DNA of 49,886 nucleotides from Clostridia bacterium. Lineage in GTDB: Bacteria > Bacillota > Clostridia > Oscillospirales > Acutalibacteraceae. Positions 38,007-48,640 of this stretch are shown here, in pieces (the stretch's first letter is position 1; each line of letters opens with the position of its first letter). The position numbers and the translations under genes were made by a program. The notes below the pieces were generated by a model. The model made no database searches, was not told the DNA's origin, and saw nothing but the letters and a program-made list of their open reading frames with translations. Location: assembly GCA_017473165.1 (NCBI GenBank), contig JAFUNA010000001.1, positions 1 to 49,886 of the forward strand, given 5' to 3'.

Positions 38007-39875
38007 ATGAAACGCTGTTTAAACTGTTTAAGCGAATGCAAGGATTCCGTGTCGGTCTGCACGGCGTGCGGATTCGACGGAACAATACAAAATAAATATG
38101 AATACACTCTGCCAATGGGCACGAAGATTAACGGCAGATATGTGCTTGGCGGCGTTGCAGAAAAAAACAAGGTTTTTGCAACATATTTTGCCTTTGATTC
38201 AAAGCTCGGCAAGCGTGTGCGGCTGACGGAATACCTGCCCGAAAGATATGTTTACCGCAATCCCGACGAGGAAGGAGTGCGGTTTCTTGACGAGGAGTGC
38301 AGAATGCGTGCCGACAGGGAAATTGCGTCGCTCTATTCCCATTACGGCAAGCTCTGCGAGGCTTCAAAATCGAGCGTGCTCAATTTCACCGACGTTTTTG
38401 CCGCAAATTCAACCGTATATTTTGCAAGCTCAATCGAAACGGGAATTCCGTTTTCGTCAATGGCGGGCAACGGCAGGGCGATGCCCTTTGAAAAGGCGGT
38501 TTCGATGCTTGCCCCCGTTTTTGCGTGCCTTTCAAAAATGCGTGAGGCGGGCAAGTGGCACGGCTCGGTAACGCCCTATTCAATTCTGACCCAAAACGGC
38601 AGGGTTACGGCTCTCACGGGCTACAGCTATCCGCCCAAATACACCGCATCTCCGTTTGATGCACCCGAAAAGCAGGTTGGTGCGGGCAAATGCGGCTCAT
38701 ATACCGACGTTTATTCAATGGGTGCAATCCTCTATCAGGCGGCAACGGGATTTCTGCCTCCCTCCGCAAGTCAGAGAGAAAGGGGCAGGGAACTGCGTTT
38801 TCCCGAGGGTTTTCCCGAAAACCAAAAGGAAATCATTCTCGGTGCAATGAATCCCAACGAAAGAGAGCGTTACGCCGACATTGACGAATTTGCCGCTGCA
38901 CTGGGGCTGCGTAAGCCCGAGCAGAAAAAATCAAAGCCCTCACCGTCTGAAATCATAAGAAAAATTGTTCTTGCTCTTGCGATAATCTGTCTTGCTGCAA
39001 GCGGCGGATATCTTGTAAACTATTATATAATCGAGCCCATGCAGGAATCAAAGCAGGCGGATGAGCTTGCGGGTCTGATTCAGACAACCCTGCAGAATAC
39101 GCAGGTTTATATTGACCCGTGGGAGGAAATTTACCAAAGGCATCCCGATGTTGCCTATCCCTCGGGCATGAATCCCGCCTTTGCCGACCTTTATGCAATC
39201 AACAACGAGTTTGCGGGCTGGGTTTCGATTCCGTCGCTGAATATTAACTATTCCGTTTTGCAGACCACGGATAACGAAAAATATCTCCGCAAGGATATCT
39301 ACGGCAACAGAACCTCCTACGGCGTGCCCTATTTTGACTATCGCAACTCCATGAAAAACCTTGATAAGAATACAATTATCTACGGTCACAATATGCGTCA
39401 CGATGACAAGATTTTCGGCACTCTTGAGGAATACAGAACAATTGAAGGCTTCAAAAAAGCACCGCTTATCGGCATGAGCACGCTCTACGGCGACTACACC
39501 TTCAAGGTTTACGCCGTGTTTATTTCAAACAGCGAAGCCGATGACGATAACGGTCATATTTTCAACTATATTTTCACCCAGACGAGCAACGAAAGATTCA
39601 TGACCTATGTGCGTGAAATCAATAAACGCAAGCTTTACACCACGGGCGTTGACATCTGTGAAACGGACAAAATTCTGACTCTCTCAACCTGCTGCTACGA
39701 TTTTGAGGACGGAAAGCTGGTTGTTGTCGGCAGACTGCTGCGTGACGGCGAGAGTGCTGACGTTGATTTTTCGAAGGCATATATGAACGATAACCCCAAA
39801 TTTCCGCAGGCGTATTACGATGCAAAGGGCATTGATAACCCCTACGCCAACGACCCCGACGAATTCAATTATTGA
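38007..39875 (+). CDS. Zinc ribbon - pseudokinase - TM - class B sortase fusion
   Basis: The 622-residue protein starts 5 bp after GAAGGA. Residues 1-25 form a zinc ribbon (Cys4, 7, 18, 21). Residues about 36-300 follow a Ser/Thr kinase fold: the late motifs DAPE (218-221) and YTDVYSMGAILYQAATGFLPP (232-252) are clear. The catalytic lysine of VAIKEY is replaced (VRLTEY, Thr74), HRD is HGS (185-187) and DFG is missing, so it should not phosphorylate. A transmembrane helix spans 319-343. Residues about 370-580 are a class B sortase with catalytic His461 (IYGHNM), Cys562 (TLSTC) and Arg576 (VVVGRLLR), all intact. So a cytoplasmic sensor-like part is joined through the membrane to an external transpeptidase. 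It cleaves and attaches a sorting-signal protein; no candidate substrate is in the window. It ends 4 bp into the next ORF region. Confidence 0.9.
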   Translation: MKRCLNCLSECKDSVSVCTACGFDGTIQNKYEYTLPMGTKINGRYVLGGVAEKNKVFATYFAFDSKLGKRVRLTEYLPERYVYRNPDEEGVRFLDEECRMRADREIASLYSHYGKLCEASKSSVLNFTDVFAANSTVYFASSIETGIPFSSMAGNGRAMPFEKAVSMLAPVFACLSKMREAGKWHGSVTPYSILTQNGRVTALTGYSYPPKYTASPFDAPEKQVGAGKCGSYTDVYSMGAILYQAATGFLPPSASQRERGRELRFPEGFPENQKEIILGAMNPNERERYADIDEFAAALGLRKPEQKKSKPSPSEIIRKIVLALAIICLAASGGYLVNYYIIEPMQESKQADELAGLIQTTLQNTQVYIDPWEEIYQRHPDVAYPSGMNPAFADLYAINNEFAGWVSIPSLNINYSVLQTTDNEKYLRKDIYGNRTSYGVPYFDYRNSMKNLDKNTIIYGHNMRHDDKIFGTLEEYRTIEGFKKAPLIGMSTLYGDYTFKVYAVFISNSEADDDNGHIFNYIFTQTSNERFMTYVREINKRKLYTTGVDICETDKILTLSTCCYDFEDGKLVVVGRLLRDGESADVDFSKAYMNDNPKFPQAYYDAKGIDNPYANDPDEFNY

Positions 39876-39886
39876 GGAGTGTTGTT

Positions 39887-40411
39887 ATGAAATTCTTAAT
39901 TGTTGTTGATATGCAGAATGACTTTATCGACGGTGCTTTGGGCACAAAAGAGGCTGTTGCAATCGTGCCTGCGGTAAAGAAAAAAATCGAAGGCTTTGAC
40001 GGCAGGGTGATTTTTACAAGAGATACCCACGAAGCCGATTATCTTTCAACGCAGGAGGGTAAAAACCTGCCCGTTGAGCATTGCATAAAGGGCACGGACG
40101 GCTGGCAGATAAGAGCTGAACTGGATGCACTCCGCAAGGAAGAGCCCGTTGACAAGCCCACCTTCGGCAGCGTTGCTCTCGGTCAGCTTTTAAAGGCGTA
40201 TGACACCTATGAGGAAAAGATTGAAAGCATAACATTCATCGGTCTTTGCACCGATATCTGTGTTATTTCCAACGCAATGACAGCAAAGGCTTATCTTCCC
40301 GAAACTCCGATTTTTGTTGATGCGGCGTGCTGTGCGGGCGTTACGCCCGAAAGCCATGAGCGTGCGCTGGATGCAATGGCAGTTTGCCAGATAAAAGTGT
40401 TAAATCGCTAA
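39887..40411 (+). CDS. Isochorismatase-family cysteine hydrolase, nicotinamidase-like
   Basis: ATG 39887 follows GAGGAG with good spacing (174 residues). The catalytic triad of nicotinamidases is visible: Asp8 (VVDMQNDF), Lys90 (VDKPTFGS) and Cys125 (GLCTDICV). Metal-ligand-like residues Asp46 and His48 (TRDTHEADY) and His65 are present. The likely reaction is nicotinamide to nicotinate in NAD recycling, but related hydrolases share the triad. It follows the sortase gene by 11 bp and is probably read with it; the aro promoter starts just after it. Confidence 0.85.
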   Translation: MKFLIVVDMQNDFIDGALGTKEAVAIVPAVKKKIEGFDGRVIFTRDTHEADYLSTQEGKNLPVEHCIKGTDGWQIRAELDALRKEEPVDKPTFGSVALGQLLKAYDTYEEKIESITFIGLCTDICVISNAMTAKAYLPETPIFVDAACCAGVTPESHERALDAMAVCQIKVLNR

Positions 40412-40430
40412 AGTTTTTTCGAAAAATCTA

Positions 40431-40459
40431 TTGACAAACGGTTTTCGGAGTGCTATTCT
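40431..40459 (+). promoter_or_regulatory. Promoter of the aro operon
   Basis: TTGACA (40431-40436), a 17-bp spacer and TATTCT (40454-40459). Transcription would begin near 40466, leaving a leader of about 190 nt. Confidence 0.8.
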
Positions 40460-40492
40460 ATTCTCATCAAAAAACAAAAAGGAACTCAAACC

Positions 40493-40546
40493 ATGACTAA
40501 AAACGTTTTCACAGCTGCATATTTCTACTTTTACTTTATCAAGTAA
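40493..40546 (+). CDS. Phe/Tyr leader peptide of the aro operon
   Basis: A 17-codon frame, MTKNVFTAAYFYFYFIK, starts at an ATG after AAAGGA and ends with TAA at 40544. Six consecutive codons (40520-40537) read Tyr-Phe-Tyr-Phe-Tyr-Phe, with one more Phe earlier. That is the typical make-up of a leader peptide whose ribosome stalls when charged tRNA-Phe or tRNA-Tyr is short. The terminator and antiterminator around it are listed separately. The peptide itself is expected to be degraded and to have no other role. Confidence 0.85.
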   Translation: MTKNVFTAAYFYFYFIK

Positions 40547-40642
40547 CTTGATAGGGTTTGGTAGGTTTTGCTGAAAAAACGTTAAGTAATCGAGGTTTCT
40601 GATACCCCGCAGTGAAATTTACACTGCGGGGTTTATTTTTTT
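40502..40642 (+). promoter_or_regulatory. Ribosome-mediated attenuator of the aro operon
   Basis: Three competing pairings can be read. 1:2 joins AACGTTTT-CA-CAGC (40502-40515) to GCTG-AA-AAAACGTT (40570-40583) around the Tyr/Phe codons. 2:3 joins GTAGGTTTTGCTG (40561-40573) to CAGTGAAATTTAC (40610-40622), 13 bp with four G-T wobbles. 3:4 is the terminator ACCCCGCAGTG (40604-40614) with CACTGCGGGGT (40622-40632), then TTTATTTTTTT. With Phe/Tyr plentiful the ribosome reaches the leader stop and 3:4 forms. Stalling at the Tyr/Phe codons covers region 1, frees region 2 and forms 2:3, so transcription enters aroF. Confidence 0.85.
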
Positions 40643-40655
40643 GGAGGCGAAAAAA

Positions 40656-41663
40656 ATGATTGTATCAATCAAAAAAGGAACAGACGAAGCACAGGTTCAG
40701 AATTTAATCGAATGGCTTGAAAGCCTTAATCTTGAAATTCACCGCAGCGAGGGACAGTATGACACAATTCTCGGTCTTGTCGGCGACACAAGCCATGTTG
40801 ACATGGACCTCATCAGCGGACTCAATATCGTAAACAACGTTGCAAGAATCAGCGAGCCCTATAAGAGTGCAAACAGAAAATTCCATCCCGACGACACCGT
40901 AATCGACATTTGCGGCAACAAAATCGGCGGCGGAAACTTCCAGTTTATTGCAGGTCCGTGCTCCGTTGAATCATCCGAACAGATTTGCTCAATCGCAAGG
41001 GATATCAAGGCTGCGGGCGCAAATCTTCTGCGAGGCGGTGCGTTCAAGCCCAGAACATCACCCTACGCTTTTCAGGGCATGAGGGCAGAGGGTCTTGAGC
41101 TTCTGCGTGAGGCAAGAAAAGAAACGGGAGCTCCCATTGTTACCGAAATCATGGACCTTTCGCATCTTCCTCTTTTTGAGGATGTTGACGTTATTCAGGT
41201 CGGTGCAAGAAATATGCAGAATTTCGAGCTGCTCAAGGAGCTTGGCAAAACCGACAAGCCCATTCTTCTCAAAAGAGGTCTTGCCGCAACAATGGAAGAA
41301 CTGCTCATGAGTGCGGAATACATCATGGCGGGCGGCAACAGCAAGGTTATGCTCTGCGAAAGAGGAATCAGAACCTTTGAGCATTACACAAGAAATACAA
41401 TGGACATTTCCGCAATCGCACTCCTCAAAGAGAAAACCCACCTTCCCGTAATTGCAGACCCCAGCCACGCAGCGGGCATGGCAAGAATGGTAAGACCTCT
41501 TGCCCTTGCGGCGGTTGCGGCAGGTGCTGACGGACTTATGATTGAAGTTCATAACGACCCTGCCCATGCACTCTGCGACGGTCCGCAGGCACTCCGCCCC
41601 GAGGAATTCGCAAAGGTTGTTAAGGAAGCAAACGCAATCAGAGAGATTATGGTTAAGTTTTAA
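40656..41663 (+). CDS. aroF: 3-deoxy-7-phosphoheptulonate (DAHP) synthase, type I-beta with N-terminal regulatory domain
   Basis: First step of the shikimate pathway: phosphoenolpyruvate plus erythrose 4-phosphate. ATG 40656 follows GGAGG directly after the attenuator terminator; 335 residues. Residues 1-70 are a ferredoxin-like domain ([23 protein letters not shown]), as in Thermotoga DAHP synthase, where it gives inhibition by Phe and Tyr. The barrel shows [53 protein letters not shown] and DPSHAAG. So the pathway is likely controlled both at the enzyme and by attenuation. Confidence 0.96.
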
Positions 41664-41672
41664 GGTGATATT

Positions 41673-42503
41673 ATGAAGATAGGAATAGCAGGTCTCGGAC
41701 TTATCGGCGGCTCGCTTGCAAGAGCTCTCACGGACAGCGGCAAGCACGAGGTTTTCGGTCTTGACCGCAACAGAAGCTCCGTTCTTGCGGCGAAAATGGT
41801 TGAAGCTATCGCAGGGGAGCTTAACGAAGAAAACATCGGCGAATGCGAGATGATATTCATTGCCCTCTATCCGAAAGCAACGGTTGAATTCGTTGAGAAG
41901 TACGCCTCAAAAATCAAAAAGGGTACAATCGTAACCGACTGCGGCGGCGTCAAAAGACCGATTTGCAATCCCTGCGAGAAGCTTGCGGAGGAAAACGGAT
42001 TTATCTTTGTTGGCGGACATCCCATGGCGGGCACGCAGTTTTCGGGCTTTAACGCATCAAGGGGAAATCTCTATAAAAACGCAACGATGATTCTGACTCC
42101 GAAAGATAATACCGACATCAGAATTCTCGAAAAGCTGCGAAATGTGCTCAATGATGCGGGATTTGGTGCAATTAACTTTACATCTGCCGAAGAACATGAT
42201 AAAGTAATAGCGTTCACTTCTCAATTGCCCCACATTATTTCAAACGCCTACGTCAAGAGCCATACGGCGGTTAAGCAGAAGGGCTTTTCCGCAGGCAGCT
42301 ACAGGGATTTGACAAGAGTTTCGAAGCTCAACGAAAAAATGTGGACGGAGCTTTTCTTTGAGAATAAAGATAATCTCTGCGATGAAATAGATTTTCTTGT
42401 GGAAAGACTTCAGGAATACAGTGCCGCACTCAAGGCGGATGACAGAGAAGGTCTTGTTGCCCTGCTCAAAGAGGGCACGGACAGCAAAAAACAGGCAAAG
42501 TAG
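41673..42503 (+). CDS. tyrA: Prephenate dehydrogenase
   Basis: Oxidative decarboxylation of prephenate to 4-hydroxyphenylpyruvate for tyrosine. The 276 residues have the NAD-binding start MKIGIAGLGLIGGSLARAL, the family motif GGHPMAGTQFSG, and a helical dimerisation half with SQLPHIISNAYV and AGSYRDLTRVS. No C-terminal ACT domain is fused, so control by tyrosine would have to come from elsewhere, such as the attenuator. The gene starts 9 bp after aroF with AAGGTG as ribosome site. Confidence 0.95.
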   Translation: MKIGIAGLGLIGGSLARALTDSGKHEVFGLDRNRSSVLAAKMVEAIAGELNEENIGECEMIFIALYPKATVEFVEKYASKIKKGTIVTDCGGVKRPICNPCEKLAEENGFIFVGGHPMAGTQFSGFNASRGNLYKNATMILTPKDNTDIRILEKLRNVLNDAGFGAINFTSAEEHDKVIAFTSQLPHIISNAYVKSHTAVKQKGFSAGSYRDLTRVSKLNEKMWTELFFENKDNLCDEIDFLVERLQEYSAALKADDREGLVALLKEGTDSKKQAK

Positions 42504-42511
42504 GAATAAAA

Positions 42512-43561
42512 ATGGAAATTATTAAGGTTAATGCGTCAAAGGAATATGAGGTTGTAATCGGCAGCGGAATTCTTTCGGAGCTTGGCGAAAGATGTGCTTC
42601 TCTGCTCGGTAAGGGCAGGGCAGTTATCGTAACCGACAGCAATGTTAAGGAATATTGGCTCGACGAAACAAAAAAGAGCCTTCAGCTTGCGGGAATTCAG
42701 ACTTCGGTTTTCGTTTTCCCTGCGGGAGAGGAGTCCAAAAGCAAGGAAACTCTTTTTGAGCTTATTGAATTCATGGCTGAAAACCGTCTTACCCGCAGCG
42801 ACTTTGCCGTTGCTCTGGGCGGCGGAGTAACGGGCGATATGACGGGGCTTGCGGCATCACTTTATCTTCGTGGCATTCCCTTTGTGCAGGTGCCCACAAC
42901 CCTTCTTGCGGCGGTTGATTCGTCTGTCGGCGGCAAAACGGCGGTTAACCTCAAAGCGGGCAAAAATCTTATGGGCGCATTCTATCAGCCCGAGCTCGTG
43001 CTCTGCGACACACGCACCCTTGACACGCTCTCCGACGAAATTTTTGCCGACGGAATGGCGGAGGTCATCAAATACGGCGTGATTTTTGACAGAGAATTGT
43101 TTGACAGGGTCAAGGGCGGCAATGTAAAATCTGATATAGAGAAAATCATCGCAAGATGCGTTGAGCTTAAAAGAGATGTTGTTGCAAGGGATGAATTCGA
43201 CAAGGGCGACCGTCAGCTGCTCAATTTCGGACACACCATGGCTCATTCAATCGAAAAATGCAGCAATTTTGAAATTTCCCACGGAAGTGCCGTTGCAATC
43301 GGCATGGTCATTGCCGCAAAGGCAAGTGCAAAGCTCGGCTGGAGCGATGAGGACTGCACCGCAGAAATCATGAATGCAAACAAGAACAATAATCTCCCCA
43401 CCGAGTGCGGATTTGCACCCAATGACCTTGCAGACGTTGCCCTTTCCGACAAAAAACGCACGGGCGGCACAATCAATTTCGTTGTGCCCGAGGTTATGGG
43501 CAGATGTGTTTTGAAGAAAATACCTGTTGAAACGCTTTATAAAATTGCGGAGTGTAAATAA
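42512..43561 (+). CDS. aroB: 3-dehydroquinate synthase
   Basis: Second shikimate step, NAD- and metal-dependent cyclisation of DAHP. The 349 residues contain GRAVIVTDSNV, the nucleotide-binding GGGVTGDMTGLAASLYLRGI, PTTLLAAVDSSVGGKTAVN, LLNFGHTMAHSIE (metal ligands) and ISHGSAVAIGM. All catalytic residues I can check are present. The stop is immediately followed by the aroA start. Confidence 0.96.
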   Translation: MEIIKVNASKEYEVVIGSGILSELGERCASLLGKGRAVIVTDSNVKEYWLDETKKSLQLAGIQTSVFVFPAGEESKSKETLFELIEFMAENRLTRSDFAVALGGGVTGDMTGLAASLYLRGIPFVQVPTTLLAAVDSSVGGKTAVNLKAGKNLMGAFYQPELVLCDTRTLDTLSDEIFADGMAEVIKYGVIFDRELFDRVKGGNVKSDIEKIIARCVELKRDVVARDEFDKGDRQLLNFGHTMAHSIEKCSNFEISHGSAVAIGMVIAAKASAKLGWSDEDCTAEIMNANKNNNLPTECGFAPNDLADVALSDKKRTGGTINFVVPEVMGRCVLKKIPVETLYKIAECK

Positions 43562-44791
43562 ATGGACATAAAAATAACACCTGCTCCGATTTCGGGCAGG
43601 ATTGAGGGAATCGCCTCAAAATCCTTTGCACACAGGGCGTTGATTTGTGCCTGCCTTGCAAAGGGCGAGAGCCGAATAAAAATAAATACAACCTCTGCGG
43701 ATATCGAGGCAACGGTTTCGTGCCTTGAAAATCTGGGTGCGAAAATCGAAAAAAAAGGTGATATTTATACTGTTTTACCCATCGCAAACGCTCCCGGCTC
43801 CGCCGTTATAAACTGCAACGAAAGCGGCTCAACTCTGCGTTTTCTTTTGCCCGTTGTTGCGGCACTCGGCATCAAAACCGAAATCAACGCTTCGGGCAGA
43901 CTTCCCGAAAGACCTCTTTCGCCCCTCAAAGAGGAGCTTATCAGAATGGGTGCGGAAATTTCCGACTTGTTTCCTCTTGCCGTTTCGGGCAGGCTCAATT
44001 CGGGCGAATTCACAATGCGTGGCGATGTCAGCTCGCAGTTTGTGACGGGTCTGCTCATGGCTCTTTCTTATCTCGGCGGCGGAAAAATCAATTTGCTGCC
44101 TCCCGTACAGTCCCGACCCTATATTGACATAACTCTGCAGGTCCTGAAGCGTTTCGGGGCGGACATTAAAGAAGAAAATAATACTTTTTATATAAAAAAT
44201 GCAGACCTTCACGGCTGCGATTTCACCGTTGAAGCCGACTGGTCAAATGCCGCATTCCCTCTTTGCATGGGTGCAGAGGTTTCGGGTCTTGACCCCGACT
44301 CAACCCAGGGTGACAAGGCAATTATTGATGTTCTGAATAAAATGGGTGCGGTTATAACCGAAAATAACGGCTGCTTCAAAGCCGATGTTTCTGCTCTTTA
44401 CGGCTGCAGAATCGATGCGTCGGATATTCCCGATGCGGTGCCCGTTATTGCGGCGGTTGCGGCAACGGCAGAGGGCGAAACCGTGATTTACAACGCAGAA
44501 CGCCTTCGTCTGAAAGAAAGCGACAGAATTCAGACAACCGCCCACATGATTCGTGCGCTGGGCGGCGTAATTGCCGAAACCGATGACGGTCTGATTATCA
44601 AAGGCAAAAAAATTCTTGACGGCGGCGAAACTCCGTCATTCAATGACCACAGAATTGCCATGGCGGCGGCGGTTGCGGCTTGCAGCTGCAAGGGTGACGT
44701 GATTATCCGTCAGGCGGAAGCGGTCAATAAATCATACCCCGCATTTTTTGATGACTATAACAAACTGGGAGGTAATGCCCGTGTCCTGTAA
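43562..44791 (+). CDS. aroA: 3-phosphoshikimate 1-carboxyvinyltransferase (EPSP synthase)
   Basis: Joins shikimate 3-phosphate and PEP. The 409 residues carry SKSFAHRALICACLA (lysine and PEP-binding region), NCNESGSTLRFLLPVVAALG, GDVSSQFVTGLLMALSYLGG and RLRLKESDRIQTTAHMIRALGG. The NESGSTLRF motif has Ser where class I enzymes have a Gly (NAGTAMRP), so it is of the class II type, often little affected by glyphosate; that property is inferred. Starts directly after the aroB stop; ends inside aroC. Confidence 0.96.
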   Translation: MDIKITPAPISGRIEGIASKSFAHRALICACLAKGESRIKINTTSADIEATVSCLENLGAKIEKKGDIYTVLPIANAPGSAVINCNESGSTLRFLLPVVAALGIKTEINASGRLPERPLSPLKEELIRMGAEISDLFPLAVSGRLNSGEFTMRGDVSSQFVTGLLMALSYLGGGKINLLPPVQSRPYIDITLQVLKRFGADIKEENNTFYIKNADLHGCDFTVEADWSNAAFPLCMGAEVSGLDPDSTQGDKAIIDVLNKMGAVITENNGCFKADVSALYGCRIDASDIPDAVPVIAAVAATAEGETVIYNAERLRLKESDRIQTTAHMIRALGGVIAETDDGLIIKGKKILDGGETPSFNDHRIAMAAAVAACSCKGDVIIRQAEAVNKSYPAFFDDYNKLGGNARVL

Positions 44792-45854
44792 TTTCGGAAA
44801 CGACATAAAATTAACAATTTTCGGTCAGTCCCATTCCGAGGCAATCGGAGCGGTGATTGACGGTCTGCCCGCAGGCTTCGAGATTGATTTTGAAAAGGTT
44901 GCGGCATTCATGGCAAGGCGTGCTCCCGGTCAAAACGACCTTTCAACCCCCCGAAAAGAGGCTGATGCGGTTAAAATTCTTTCGGGCATCGTTGACGGCA
45001 AAACCTGCGGTGCACCGATTTGTGCGATAATCGAAAACACAAATACCCGCTCGGGGGATTACGATAAGCTCAAAAGCGTGCCCCGACCCGCTCACAGCGA
45101 TTTTGCCGCATTCATGAAGCATAACGGCTTCAACGATATCCGAGGCGGCGGAAATTTCAGCGGCAGACTTACCGCACCGCTCTGCTTTGCGGGAGCGGTT
45201 TGTATGCAGCTTCTCGAAAGCAAGGGCATCCGTATCGGTGCACACATCGCATCAATCGGCAAAACAGCCGATGAAAAATTCGATGCGGTCAATGTAAATT
45301 CAGCCGATTTTGACAAAATTCTCGCAAAGCCCTTCCCCGTTATCGACGATAAGCAGGGCGAATATATGAGAAAAGAAATATATGATGCCAAGGAAAACGG
45401 CGATTCCGTTGGCGGCATAATCGAATGTGCGGTTGTCGGAATGCCTGCCGGCATAGGCGACCCGATTTTTGACGGACTTGAAAACCGAATAAGTGCCGCA
45501 GTTTTCGGAATTCCCGCAGTCAAGGGAATCGAATTCGGTGCGGGCTTTGAGTCAAGCCGAATGCTCGGCAGCGAAAACAACGATGATTTCATCTGCGAAA
45601 ACGGCGAAATTAGAACCGAAACCAACAACCACGGCGGAATTCTTGGCGGAATTTCCTCGGGAATGCCCGTTATTTTCAGATGTGCGATAAAGCCTACCCC
45701 CTCAATCGCAAAGGAGCAGAAATCGGTCAACATCATGTCGGGCGAAGCCGAAAGGCTTGTTATCGGCGGCAGACATGACCCCTGCATCGTGCCCAGAGCC
45801 GTGCCCTGCGTTGAGGCTGCGGCGGCGATTGTTATTGCAGATTATATTTTTTAA
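44781..45854 (+). CDS. aroC: Chorismate synthase
   Basis: Last step to chorismate, using reduced FMN. I start it at GTG 44781 (357 residues, MSCNFGNDIKLTIFGQSHSE), 8 bp after GGGAGG; an ATG at 44775 is only 2 bp from that site. Motifs: GQSHSEAIGAVIDGLPAG, MARRAPGQNDLSTPR, PRPAHSDFAA, RGGGNFSGRLTAPLCFAGA and TNNHGGILGGISSGMP. It overlaps the end of aroA by 11 bp, so translation is coupled. Confidence 0.95.
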   Translation: MSCNFGNDIKLTIFGQSHSEAIGAVIDGLPAGFEIDFEKVAAFMARRAPGQNDLSTPRKEADAVKILSGIVDGKTCGAPICAIIENTNTRSGDYDKLKSVPRPAHSDFAAFMKHNGFNDIRGGGNFSGRLTAPLCFAGAVCMQLLESKGIRIGAHIASIGKTADEKFDAVNVNSADFDKILAKPFPVIDDKQGEYMRKEIYDAKENGDSVGGIIECAVVGMPAGIGDPIFDGLENRISAAVFGIPAVKGIEFGAGFESSRMLGSENNDDFICENGEIRTETNNHGGILGGISSGMPVIFRCAIKPTPSIAKEQKSVNIMSGEAERLVIGGRHDPCIVPRAVPCVEAAAAIVIADYIF

Positions 45855-45866
45855 GCTGGTGTGAAA

Positions 45867-47003
45867 ATGGATATCAAGGATTTAAGAAACGAAATAGATT
45901 CAATCGACAGGGAGCTGACAGCCCTTTTTCAAAAAAGAATGGCGGTTGCGGCAGAGGTTGCGAAATACAAGCAGGAAAGAAATCTGCCTGTTTTCAACAA
46001 GGAGCGTGAGCGTGAGGTGCTCAACTCCGTAACGGCAAGCGTGCCTGCTCAGCTTGAGGGCTACACTAAAACTCTTTACGAAACAATTTTCAACGTCAGC
46101 CGCTCATATCAGAAAAAGCTGATTAAACCCCAGTCACCCGTGTCAAAAATGATTGCGGATGTTACCGTACAGACTCCCTGCGAAAGACCCTCCAGAGCGG
46201 TTGTTGCCTGTCAGGGCGTCGAGGGAGCTTATTCCCAGTTTGCCTGCGACAAGATGTTTGCCTATCCCTCAATTGTCTATTGCAGAGGCTTTGAGGATGT
46301 TTTCAAGGCGGTTGACAGCGGACTTTGCCGCTACGGTGTTTTGCCCGTTGAAAACAGCACTGCAGGTACGGTCAACAAGGTATATGACCTTATGAAGGAG
46401 CATAAATTCTATATTGTTCACAGTCTTAAGCTTTTCATAAGGCACGCTCTGCTTGCTCCCGAGGGCGTGAAAATTGAGGATATCAAGGAGGTTTTCTCCC
46501 ACGAGCAGGCAATAAATCAATGCTCCGAATTCCTTGCAAAGCTCGGTGTTAAGATTACTTCCTGCGAAAATACCGCCGTTGCGGCGAAAATGGTTGCGGA
46601 AAGCGGCAGAAAGGACTGTGCATCAATCGGCTCAAAGGACGGTGCGGCACAGTACGGGCTCAACGCACTCAAAACGGGAATTCAGAACACAGACAACAAC
46701 TACACCCGTTTTATCTGCATTTCAAAGAAGCCCGAAATCTATCCGGGTGCAAAAAAGACCAGCTTCATGATGACAATTCCTCATGAACCCGGTTCGCTTT
46801 ATAATATTCTTTCAAGATTTGCCGCCCTCGGACTCAACATGACAAAGCTTGAATCCCGACCCATTCCCGGCAGCAATTTTGAATTCATGTTCTATTTTGA
46901 TATCGATGCCTCGGTTTATTCCGACAGTCTGAAGGCTCTTTTCAGCGAGCTCGAAAACGATGCGGAGCAGTTCAGCTATCTGGGCAGCTATACGGAGGAG
47001 TAG
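45867..47003 (+). CDS. pheA: Bifunctional chorismate mutase / prephenate dehydratase
   Basis: Turns chorismate to prephenate and then phenylpyruvate. I use ATG 45867 (378 residues); a GTG 6 bp earlier is possible. Residues 1-90 are the helical AroQ-type mutase (DLRNEIDSIDRELTALFQKR, VFNKEREREVL). Residues about 112-290 are the dehydratase with GVEGAYSQFA, VLPVENSTAGTV and the active-site NYTRFICIS. The C terminus is an ACT domain with LESRPIPGSNFEFMFYFD, the phenylalanine-binding ESRP motif, so feedback inhibition by Phe is expected. It supplies the mutase step for tyrA as well. Confidence 0.95.
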   Translation: MDIKDLRNEIDSIDRELTALFQKRMAVAAEVAKYKQERNLPVFNKEREREVLNSVTASVPAQLEGYTKTLYETIFNVSRSYQKKLIKPQSPVSKMIADVTVQTPCERPSRAVVACQGVEGAYSQFACDKMFAYPSIVYCRGFEDVFKAVDSGLCRYGVLPVENSTAGTVNKVYDLMKEHKFYIVHSLKLFIRHALLAPEGVKIEDIKEVFSHEQAINQCSEFLAKLGVKITSCENTAVAAKMVAESGRKDCASIGSKDGAAQYGLNALKTGIQNTDNNYTRFICISKKPEIYPGAKKTSFMMTIPHEPGSLYNILSRFAALGLNMTKLESRPIPGSNFEFMFYFDIDASVYSDSLKALFSELENDAEQFSYLGSYTEE

Positions 47004-47006
47004 TCT

Positions 47007-48227
47007 ATGTTTGGTCTTTTAGGCAGAAAGCTCGGGCATTCGCTCTCTCCCGAAATTCATGCAAAGCTCTGCGATTATGAATACAAGCTTTATCCCACCG
47101 AGCCCGAAAACCTTGACGAATTCTTTTCAAACAAGGCTTTGAAGGCGTTCAATGTTACGATTCCCTATAAAATCGAAGCCTTTAACCGCTGTGCGGAGCG
47201 TTCCGAAACTGCGGAAAAGGTCGGCAGCGTAAACACCGTTGTCCGCCGTTCTGACGGCACTCTTTTCGGCGATAACACCGATTATTTCGGCTTCAGTTAT
47301 ATGGCGAAAAAGTGCGGCTGCGATTTCAAGGGCAAAAAAGTCCTCATTCTCGGCTCGGGCGGTGCAAGTCTGACCGTCCGCCACGTTGCAAACGATGAGG
47401 GAGCAAGGGAAACCGTTGTTGTTTCACGCTCCGGCGAGGATAACTATGAGAATATCAGCCGCCATTACGATGCGGACATAATCGTCAACACAACTCCCGT
47501 AGGAATGTATCCCAACAACGGCGAAAGGCTCATTGACCTTTCAAAATTCACAAAATGCAAAAAGGCTCTTGATTTGATTTATAACCCCGCACGCACCGTG
47601 TTTCTGCTTGATGCACAGCGGCTCGGAATTGACTGCATAAACGGGCTTTATATGCTTGTTGCACAGGCACTCCGTGCTGCCGAAATTTTTACGGACAAAA
47701 AAATCCCCCTTGAAAAGATTGATGAAATCTATGAGGAAATCATAAAAGAGCAGAAAAACATTGTGCTTGTGGGAATGCCCGGCTGCGGAAAATCGACCCT
47801 TGCGGCACTTATTTCAAAGAAAACAGGCAGAATTTGCATTGACACCGACTCAATTGTTGAGGAATCGGGCGAAAAAATTCCCGATATTTTCGCAAAATAC
47901 GGTGAAGCCGAATTCCGACGTCGTGAAACCGAAGCGGTTAAGGCTGCGGGCAAGGACAAGGGAAAAATCATTGCAACGGGCGGCGGAGCAATTCTCAAGC
48001 CCGAAAACCGAATTGCTTTAAGAGAAAATTCAACCGTGATTTTCCTCAATGCACCCGTAAAAACCCTTGCAACCGACGGCAGACCTCTTTCAAAAAGTCC
48101 CGAAGCACTCGAAAAAATGCACGCCGAAAGGCTTCCGCTCTATCTTGAAGCGGCGGATTACACCGTTGAGGTTGACCCTGACCCCGAAATAACCTTAAGG
48201 AGGATTATGGAATGCGTATCCTTGTAA
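47007..48227 (+). CDS. Fused shikimate dehydrogenase - shikimate kinase
   Basis: Two shikimate steps in one 406-residue chain. Residues 1-245 are AroE: GRKLGHSLSPEIHAKL, NVTIPYK (catalytic Lys), DNTDYFGF (catalytic Asp) and the NADP-binding LILGSGGAS. Residues about 250-406 are AroK: LVGMPGCGKST (Walker A), IDTDSIVEESGEKIPDIFAKYGEAEFRRRE (shikimate-binding DxD and R), ATGGGAI and the lid-region RPLSKS. The kinase half looks complete. The lid has LATDGRPLSKS in place of the more usual arginine-led R.RPLL. The fusion brings consecutive reactions together and lets one gene serve both. It overlaps aroQ by 16 bp. Confidence 0.93.
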   Translation: MFGLLGRKLGHSLSPEIHAKLCDYEYKLYPTEPENLDEFFSNKALKAFNVTIPYKIEAFNRCAERSETAEKVGSVNTVVRRSDGTLFGDNTDYFGFSYMAKKCGCDFKGKKVLILGSGGASLTVRHVANDEGARETVVVSRSGEDNYENISRHYDADIIVNTTPVGMYPNNGERLIDLSKFTKCKKALDLIYNPARTVFLLDAQRLGIDCINGLYMLVAQALRAAEIFTDKKIPLEKIDEIYEEIIKEQKNIVLVGMPGCGKSTLAALISKKTGRICIDTDSIVEESGEKIPDIFAKYGEAEFRRRETEAVKAAGKDKGKIIATGGGAILKPENRIALRENSTVIFLNAPVKTLATDGRPLSKSPEALEKMHAERLPLYLEAADYTVEVDPDPEITLRRIMECVSL

Positions 48228-48640
48228 TAAACGGACCGAATATCAATATGCTCGGCATCAGAGAGCCCGGAATTTACGGCAGCTCAACCTATGCCGACCT
48301 TTGCAAAATGATTGAGATCTACGCCGCCGAAAAGGGTGTTGAGGTCAAGCTTTTTCAGTCCAACCACGAGGGCAGCATCGTTGATGAAATACAGGCGGCA
48401 TACCAAAAGTTTGACGGAATTGTCATAAATCCCGCCGCATATACTCACACAAGCGTAGCGATTCTTGATGCCCTCAAATCCGTTGCGATTCCCGCAGTTG
48501 AAATCCATATTTCCGATGTTACCAAAAGAGAGGATTTCAGACAGATTTCCTATGCGGGCATGGCTTGCAAAAAGTCATTTATCGGTCTGGGCTTTGACGG
48601 ATATCTGCGTGGAATTGACTGGCTGATTGATAATAATTGA
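48212..48640 (+). CDS. aroQ: Type II 3-dehydroquinate dehydratase
   Basis: Third shikimate step. The 142 residues begin MRILVINGPNINMLGIREPGIYG, with the catalytic Tyr of the flexible loop, followed by QSNHEGSIVDEIQ, VINPAAYTHTSVAILDAL and VEIHISDVTKREDFRQIS: all type II signatures. The ATG lies 9 bp after GGAGG inside the end of the aroE-aroK fusion. It is the last gene of the operon. The next promoter starts 9 bp after its stop; I see no separate terminator. Confidence 0.96.
   Translation: MRILVINGPNINMLGIREPGIYGSSTYADLCKMIEIYAAEKGVEVKLFQSNHEGSIVDEIQAAYQKFDGIVINPAAYTHTSVAILDALKSVAIPAVEIHISDVTKREDFRQISYAGMACKKSFIGLGFDGYLRGIDWLIDNN

Follow-up and report, generated by a model that had tools for sequence, protein, structure and literature searches.

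The DNA in front of the aro operon in the window (the whole stretch analysed here, 49,886 nucleotides) very probably encodes a classical ribosome-mediated attenuator that jointly monitors the charging of tRNA-Tyr and tRNA-Phe and controls aroF-tyrA-aroB-aroA-aroC-pheA-aroE/K-aroQ, a reading to which we assign a probability of roughly 0.92. The host is a gut-type bacterium whose leader seems to gauge phenylalanine and tyrosine by the speed at which a ribosome reads it. The original prediction had described the region as a Phe/Tyr attenuator read by the ribosome; all parts it named are present, and comparison with relatives speaks in its favour, since the parts are conserved and covary and the codon content of the leaders matches operon content statistically. 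Leader, arms 1 to 3 and terminator 3:4 all lie between a sigma-70-like promoter (40431-40459) and aroF (40656), as set out below together with the operon and the evidence for each feature.

40431-40459, plus strand: putative sigma-70-type promoter with an extended -10 (TTGACA, 17 nt, TATTCT; 10 of 12 consensus matches)
40479-40483, plus strand: Shine-Dalgarno-like AAGGA 5' of the leader ORF (sequence)
40493-40546, plus strand: leader peptide ORF, MTKNVFTAAYFYFYFIK followed by a stop, 17 codons, ATG at 40493, ending in TAA (sequence)
40502-40515, plus strand: arm 1, over leader codons 4-8, partner 40570-40583 (pairing; covariation score in 28 sequences; cognate better than permuted)
40520-40537, plus strand: regulatory codons Tyr-Phe-Tyr-Phe-Tyr-Phe, TAT TTC TAC TTT TAC TTT (sequence)
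40561-40573, plus strand: arm 2, conserved element of the TTTTGCTG type, partner 40610-40622 or held in the 1:2 domain (alignment, pairing, fold)
40570-40583, plus strand: 3' partner of arm 1, the protector in the 1:2 helix (pairing, covariation)
40604-40614, plus strand: 5' arm of the terminator, overlapping the antiterminator's 40610-40622 (terminator scan, pairing, covariation)
40622-40632, plus strand: arm 4, the 3' arm of the terminator (terminator scan, pairing, covariation)
40633-40642, plus strand: T run of the intrinsic terminator (terminator scan)
40656-41663, plus strand: aroF, DAHP synthase of the B. subtilis type (TIGR01361)
41673-42503, plus strand: tyrA, prephenate dehydrogenase (best NCBIfam matches, below cut-offs)
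42512-43561, plus strand: aroB (TIGR01357)
43562-44791, plus strand: aroA (TIGR01356)
44775-45854, plus strand: aroC (TIGR00033)
45867-47003, plus strand: pheA, chorismate mutase / prephenate dehydratase (best NCBIfam matches, below cut-offs)
47007-48227, plus strand: aroE-aroK fusion, shikimate dehydrogenase and shikimate kinase (best NCBIfam matches, below cut-offs)
48212-48640, plus strand: aroQ, type II dehydroquinate dehydratase (TIGR01088)

Scanning for promoter consensus matches returned two in the region against 1.5 expected, and a TTGACA / TG / TATAAT-like layout was seen by eye at the corresponding place in three relatives (L013, L009 and L010). The anticipated leader peptide with alternating Tyr and Phe codons is present (ORF 40493-40546, run 40520-40537). 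So is the 11-bp terminator 3:4, which joins 40604-40614 to 40622-40632 by 11 pairs, eight of them G-C, at -21.0 kcal/mol and runs into the T run at 40633-40642. The 13-bp antiterminator 2:3 could also be drawn as proposed, with 13 pairs, four of them G-U, between 40561-40573 and 40610-40622 (-10.6 kcal/mol). In the 1:2 helix, 12 of 14 positions pair between 40502-40515, within the leader ORF, and 40570-40583, making it the outer helix of a 1:2 domain; in the fold predicted for the entire leader, nine of arm 2's 13 bases are engaged in this domain. For the 175-nt leader the folding energy is -54.9 kcal/mol, compared with -30.6 in shuffles (z -6.2). Because the antiterminator uses bases of the terminator (common to 40610-40622 and 40604-40614), the two are mutually exclusive, in agreement with the earlier claim. 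The ORF and the terminator are clear from the window alone, whereas 2:3 and 1:2 stand above chance only through the relatives: taken singly, the window's 2:3 duplex does not stand out, being equalled by 30 of 100 shuffles, and its 1:2 helix is borderline (9 of 100).

From this arrangement we infer that the leader is translated and that stalling within it switches between termination and transcription of the operon in response to starvation. When phenylalanine and tyrosine are both abundant, or when the leader carries no ribosome, 1:2 would fold, terminator 3:4 would form and RNA polymerase would halt at the T run. With either amino acid short, a ribosome would stall at the Tyr-Phe-Tyr-Phe-Tyr-Phe codons, on or near arm 1, leaving arm 2 to pair with arm 3, so that 3:4 would be blocked and the operon transcribed. 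Since the terminator 3:4, at -21.0 kcal/mol, greatly outweighs 2:3, at -10.6, switching would have to rely on kinetics.

The original prediction had suggested a search for the same leader in related aro operons, and this search was positive. An AroF profile search of genome contigs gave at least 80 loci, including the named isolates Sporobacter termitidis (L049) and Angelakisella massiliensis (L015) among those listed, and from these we compiled 78 regions of 300 nt upstream of aroF (the window and 77 among the at least 80 loci listed; L024, L073 and L087, with less than 300 nt upstream, were left out). An ORF with a ribosome-site-like stretch and at least five Phe/Tyr in eight codons was counted as a leader, with four as a laxer threshold. 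Such leaders precede aroF in 54 of the 78 regions (matches listed plus the window), compared with 0.75 and at most 3 in dinucleotide shuffles, and none occurs on the reverse strand of the same 78 regions (among matches listed). Even at the laxer threshold, 23 of the 78 (among matches listed) carry no leader. When the 55 laxer-threshold picks (matches listed) were scored by script with a cut-off of -9 kcal/mol, a terminator-like hairpin was found at 51, although two of the 51 are misplaced (L057 and L063, hairpin in the wrong place); L018, L067, L071 and L082 have no hairpin of -9 or better, and the L067 pick is probably the tail of pheA, not a leader. Tryptophan codons are nearly absent, with 3 TGG compared with 501 Phe/Tyr codons in the 55 ORFs (among matches listed). 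The Phe/Tyr leader is thus a widespread element, not a single case.

We also built a covariance model, R1, from the aroF leaders. It strongly matches L057, L071 and L082, and also L074 and L034, where the ORF scan had picked up no leader. The last two matches (L034 2820-2974 and L074 212-399) lie on MAG contigs labelled Treponemataceae and Lentisphaerae, and may reflect horizontal transfer or misbinned contigs. At E<=1e-5, R1 was found at 44 places in 41 of 147 genomes of the same order; at E<=0.01 the figure is 82 of 147 with many weak matches, and the count was therefore restricted to E<=1e-5. The gene following these 44 sites is aroF in 40 cases (the window and 39 of the 43 others), tyrA in two, and ilvB and a TrpB-like gene in one each. 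Because R1 derives from aroF leaders, and some of the genomes are apparently sources of R1 (identical leaders), these counts describe spread and are not independent proof. In the window's own genome only the aro site matches strongly (5.9e-23). A second copy at the genome's second DAHP synthase gene was considered and rejected: the next R1 match in that genome is at 0.003, and no second element was seen before this gene, the preceding ORF ending about 60 nt away. Comparison of the element with plasmids gave no match.

The pairing of the arms was evaluated across loci by a per-locus shuffle test (49 loci, the 55 picks minus the six with an absent or misplaced hairpin) and by tests of cognate against permuted partners (47 loci, the near-duplicates L013 and L015 having been removed). 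Among the 47 loci listed, cognate 2:3 duplexes average -14.2 kcal/mol; permuting the partners gives -11.0 (none of 5000 permutations reaching the cognate value), and shuffling the arm 2 regions gives -10.55 (0 of 300). Cognate 1:2 helices likewise average -17.1 compared with -13.06 permuted (0 of 5000) and -13.08 shuffled (0 of 300; n=47 among loci listed). The cognate advantage is therefore 3.2 kcal/mol over permuted and 3.6 over shuffled sequence for 2:3, and 4.0 on both for 1:2; individually, 22 of the 49 loci listed lie at or below 5% of shuffles for 2:3 and 23 of the 49 for 1:2. It is through these relatives that the antiterminator exceeds chance and that the 1:2 helix, which had also been predicted, gains its support.

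The same hairpin could in principle merely terminate the upstream isochorismatase-family gene (39872-40411), the small ORF being incidental. That gene shares its strand with aroF and stops at 40411, and no other plus-strand terminator is listed before the promoter. However, the hairpin lies about 190 nt beyond the gene's stop and 3' of a putative promoter whose layout recurs in three relatives, its arm pairs more stably across loci with the arm 2 of its own locus than with that of another, and Phe/Tyr-rich leaders recur before aroF. On distance, promoter, cognate fit and recurrence we rejected this explanation, which we regard as very unlikely. Further upstream, the window encodes a 622-aa protein with a C-terminal sortase domain (38007-39875), the N-terminal half of which looks kinase-like by eye and has no Pfam match.

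An alignment (A1) of 28 sequences picked by eye from the 49 loci has its well-conserved stretches in the leader ORF and the pairing arms: arm 2 is conserved as the TTTTGCTG type, and in many sequences arm 1 is TTTGCAGC, read Phe-Ala-Ala. Covariation scores in these 28 sequences are 0.492 compared with a mean of 0.231 for 3:4, 0.212 compared with 0.140 for 2:3 and 0.183 compared with 0.112 for 1:2, each exceeding every slid control and every one of 500 column shuffles. By a stricter count, of pairs changed on both sides, the signal is clear for 3:4 (reached by 6 of 500 shuffles) but weak for 2:3 (6 compared with 5.3 in shuffles, reached by 235 of 500) and for 1:2 (9 compared with 7.1, reached by 32 of 500); 67.6% of 1:2 cells in A1 are paired. 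Arm 2 starts inside the leader ORF in 17 of the 28 sequences and after the leader stop in 11, the window included. Under the ribosome footprint that we assume, a ribosome at the window's leader stop would leave arm 2 uncovered, and likewise in these 11; termination would then rest on 1:2 re-forming after release.

These data also bear on whether the leader is instead a riboswitch, a T-box or a TRAP-like protein-bound RNA that reads Phe/Tyr or tRNA directly. Such regulators exist in this genome, where T-boxes (RF00230) above cut-off precede tyrS, pheS and alaS. In the 28-sequence alignment, however, the well-conserved stretches coincide with the leader ORF and the pairing arms, and Rfam at gathering score gave no match in the window, nor in the 40 relatives scanned of at least 80, nor in 20 of the 40 tyrA regions described below. 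A T-box RF00230 or known riboswitch at the aro leader was rejected on the lack of a gathering-score match in the window and the 40 relatives scanned, and we consider direct reading by ligand, tRNA or protein binding very unlikely. T-boxes work without a leader ORF and bind uncharged tRNA directly. Like the proposed attenuator, they regulate genes of amino acid metabolism according to whether a tRNA is charged, with the aid of a terminator; they differ from the aro leader in that the latter has an ORF and gives no RF00230 match. The T-boxes before tyrS and pheS and the leader before the aro operon suggest that T-boxes serve the synthetases and the leader the common pathway. The remark that Firmicutes often use T-boxes or TRAP thus holds for T-boxes at the host's tyrS and pheS, and needs refining insofar as leader-peptide attenuators have been published in some Firmicutes. 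Two different tRNAs can each be sensed by one leader, which is beyond a single T-box specifier; this capacity may be a reason for placing a T-box at tyrS and pheS and a leader at the common operon.

The operon downstream runs from aroF to aroQ, with aroF, aroB, aroA, aroC and aroQ passing the curated NCBIfam cut-off and tyrA, pheA and aroE-aroK falling below it. In the host genome (about 88% complete, an incompleteness that leaves doubt) no chorismate-binding enzyme (TrpE/PabB) and no TrpA were detected, and the operon therefore seems to supply Phe and Tyr alone. The absence of TrpE and TrpA fits a leader without Trp codons. The proposed mixed Tyr/Phe sensor on a whole shikimate operon agrees with this gene content.

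The codon mix of aroF leaders tends to follow the products of the downstream genes. In a first set of 49 of 53 loci (L019, L060, L071 and L079, with too little downstream sequence, were left out), the Tyr share is 0.45 in the 41 loci listed with tyrA within about 3 kb downstream and 0.23 in the eight without (p 1e-4), these eight including three pairs of close relatives. In a second set, drawn from the order, it is 0.43 where tyrA is adjacent (37 genomes) and 0.24 otherwise (17 genomes; p 2e-5), and genus averages give 0.44 (23) and 0.24 (12; p 3e-4). The two tests have genomes in common, and kinship is handled by the genus averages alone. The order set comprises leaders tabulated from 55 of 95 AroF-positive genomes: 40 in which R1 matches strongly ahead of aroF, and 15 from an additional 20 that were fetched; among the 20, L184, L189, L197 and L199 have no leader at the threshold and L188 is doubtful. 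G112 was left out, its tyrA lying at a contig edge, and three genomes marked as uncertain were moved to the group without tyrA because they are absent from the complete list of TyrA-match genomes. Trp is again nearly absent, at 5 compared with 503 Phe/Tyr in the 55 leaders.

Within one genus (g37), the four genomes in which no TyrA match reaches 1e-15 (G053, G069, G083 and G109) have Phe-dominated leaders with a Tyr share of 0.09-0.2, and G034, where tyrA adjoins aroF, has a mixed leader of 5 Phe and 4 Tyr. Two genomes of a single genus run counter to the trend: in G135 and G081, tyrA lies elsewhere under its own Tyr-rich leader, and yet the aroF leader has a Tyr share of 0.6. We also surveyed 40 tyrA regions, chosen by eye from 121 TyrA matches as not adjoining an AroF match; at least two lie behind an aroA-like end, so 'stand-alone' is a loose term here. 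Tyr-rich leaders with a terminator hairpin were found at three of the 40 (Y7F2, Y7F2 and Y9F1; 0.05 in shuffles), in two genera (L142, G090:C27; L143, G135:C17; L145, G081:C116), and the other 37 lack a Tyr-rich leader. Among 20 ilvB regions of relatives, an Ile/Leu/Val-rich leader (at least six in eight codons) was detected in five by a 300-nt scan (0.8 in shuffles) and in six by a 420-nt scan, and a T-box in six (Rfam gathering score); no region of the 20 had both.

A nascent-peptide arrest switch, in which the peptide together with a ligand and not slow decoding stalls the ribosome, was also weighed. TnaC and the Erm leaders are examples of such arrest, and Phe-Ala-Ala-Glu-Tyr or close variants do precede the codon run in many of the present leaders. 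These common N-terminal residues nevertheless overlie arm 1, the partner of the arm 2 region, and RNA pairing can therefore explain their conservation. The run itself varies in length and in the order of Phe and Tyr, and its composition correlates with operon content, as decoding predicts. An arrest peptide was rejected on the variable run, the codon-operon correlation and the overlap with arm 1, and is in our view highly improbable.

Taking codon-reading attenuation as the mechanism, we lean, with some reserve, towards the view that a modular leader read by the ribosome is in use among Clostridia of this order, and that evolution has retuned its codon run to the products of the operon: Tyr and Phe before aroF-tyrA, mostly Phe once the operon or the genome has lost tyrA, Tyr ahead of certain stand-alone tyrA genes and Ile/Leu/Val ahead of certain ilvB genes. 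The correlation of codon mix with gene content amounts to a natural test of the mechanism. If the retuning holds, these leaders would provide a genome-readable record of amino acid prototrophy, and transcription and translation would be coupled in them.

Such coupling would be at odds with a 2026 study that, in the available part of the paper, assigns Bacillota at the level of the phylum to the runaway transcribers (PMC13323073), because an attenuator needs the ribosome near the polymerase. Under runaway transcription the leader ribosome would lag behind the polymerase, which works against ribosome-mediated attenuation. Short spacing between stop codon and terminator has been described for B. 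subtilis (PMC7858274, in the part available). No sign of such spacing was seen in the small sample of 21 terminators from 53 relative loci and the window, where the median from stop to T run is 47 nt with genes called mechanically; the E. coli median is 42.5 (22 terminators in four stretches; p 0.14 against 47), a comparison without a runaway-species yardstick.

The kind of mechanism is already known. The E. coli pheA and pheST attenuators have a leader peptide with Phe codons (in pheST also a Tyr) and the same 1:2, 2:3 and 3:4 logic. They share with the present element a Phe-codon leader and a terminator 5' of biosynthetic or synthetase genes, but belong to another operon and another phylum, and no Rfam family matched here at gathering score. 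The closest published system, judging from the portion of the source available, is the uORFC-13-1 motif upstream of Acholeplasma aroF, for which its authors proposed attenuation on the basis of 24 sequences from Acholeplasma and the environment (PMC8632094). Like the present leader, it precedes aroF and combines a possible promoter and RBS with a short ORF, at least one codon of which is Phe, and an adjacent apparent intrinsic terminator; unlike it, by a comparison of descriptions only, the accessible account describes neither a Tyr run nor any tie to operon content (PMC8632094). In Firmicutes, his attenuators with runs of product codons have been proposed in Bacillus, Peptostreptococcaceae, Lutispora and Erysipelotrichales (PMC2965389, PMC9413887); these are also ribosome-mediated and use product codons, but concern histidine only, with 17 genomes in PMC9413887, as far as the available parts of these papers state. 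The S. aureus ilv operon has a leucine-rich leader-peptide attenuator, again in an amino acid operon of a Firmicute, yet for branched-chain amino acids and in Bacilli (PMC5794164, available part). A caution comes from the similar-looking S. coelicolor ilvB leader, where changes to the regulatory codons were without effect according to the part of the report available (PMC1262725). Leader-peptide attenuators of Firmicutes have thus been reported from scattered lineages, and the present element is a widespread Phe/Tyr leader of Clostridia unmatched by Rfam. We did not find its family, its spread or the match of codons to operon described in the literature available to us in part, where Lopatovskaya 2010, cited in PMC4833913, could cover some of this ground.

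Some further leaders were noted in passing. In the window's own genome, two tandem T-box matches below cut-off precede a threonine ammonia-lyase gene (G000:C30:3949-4401), with ilvB further along the same contig. The TrpB-like gene at L134 (G073:C97:14551-14698) lies behind an R1-matching leader that reads Tyr-Trp-Tyr-Phe-Tyr-Phe. Ile/Leu/Val-rich leaders before ilvB were recorded at L128 (G100:C28:402413-402571), L204, L206, L207, L208, L215 and L217, and most of these leaders carry a terminator-like hairpin.
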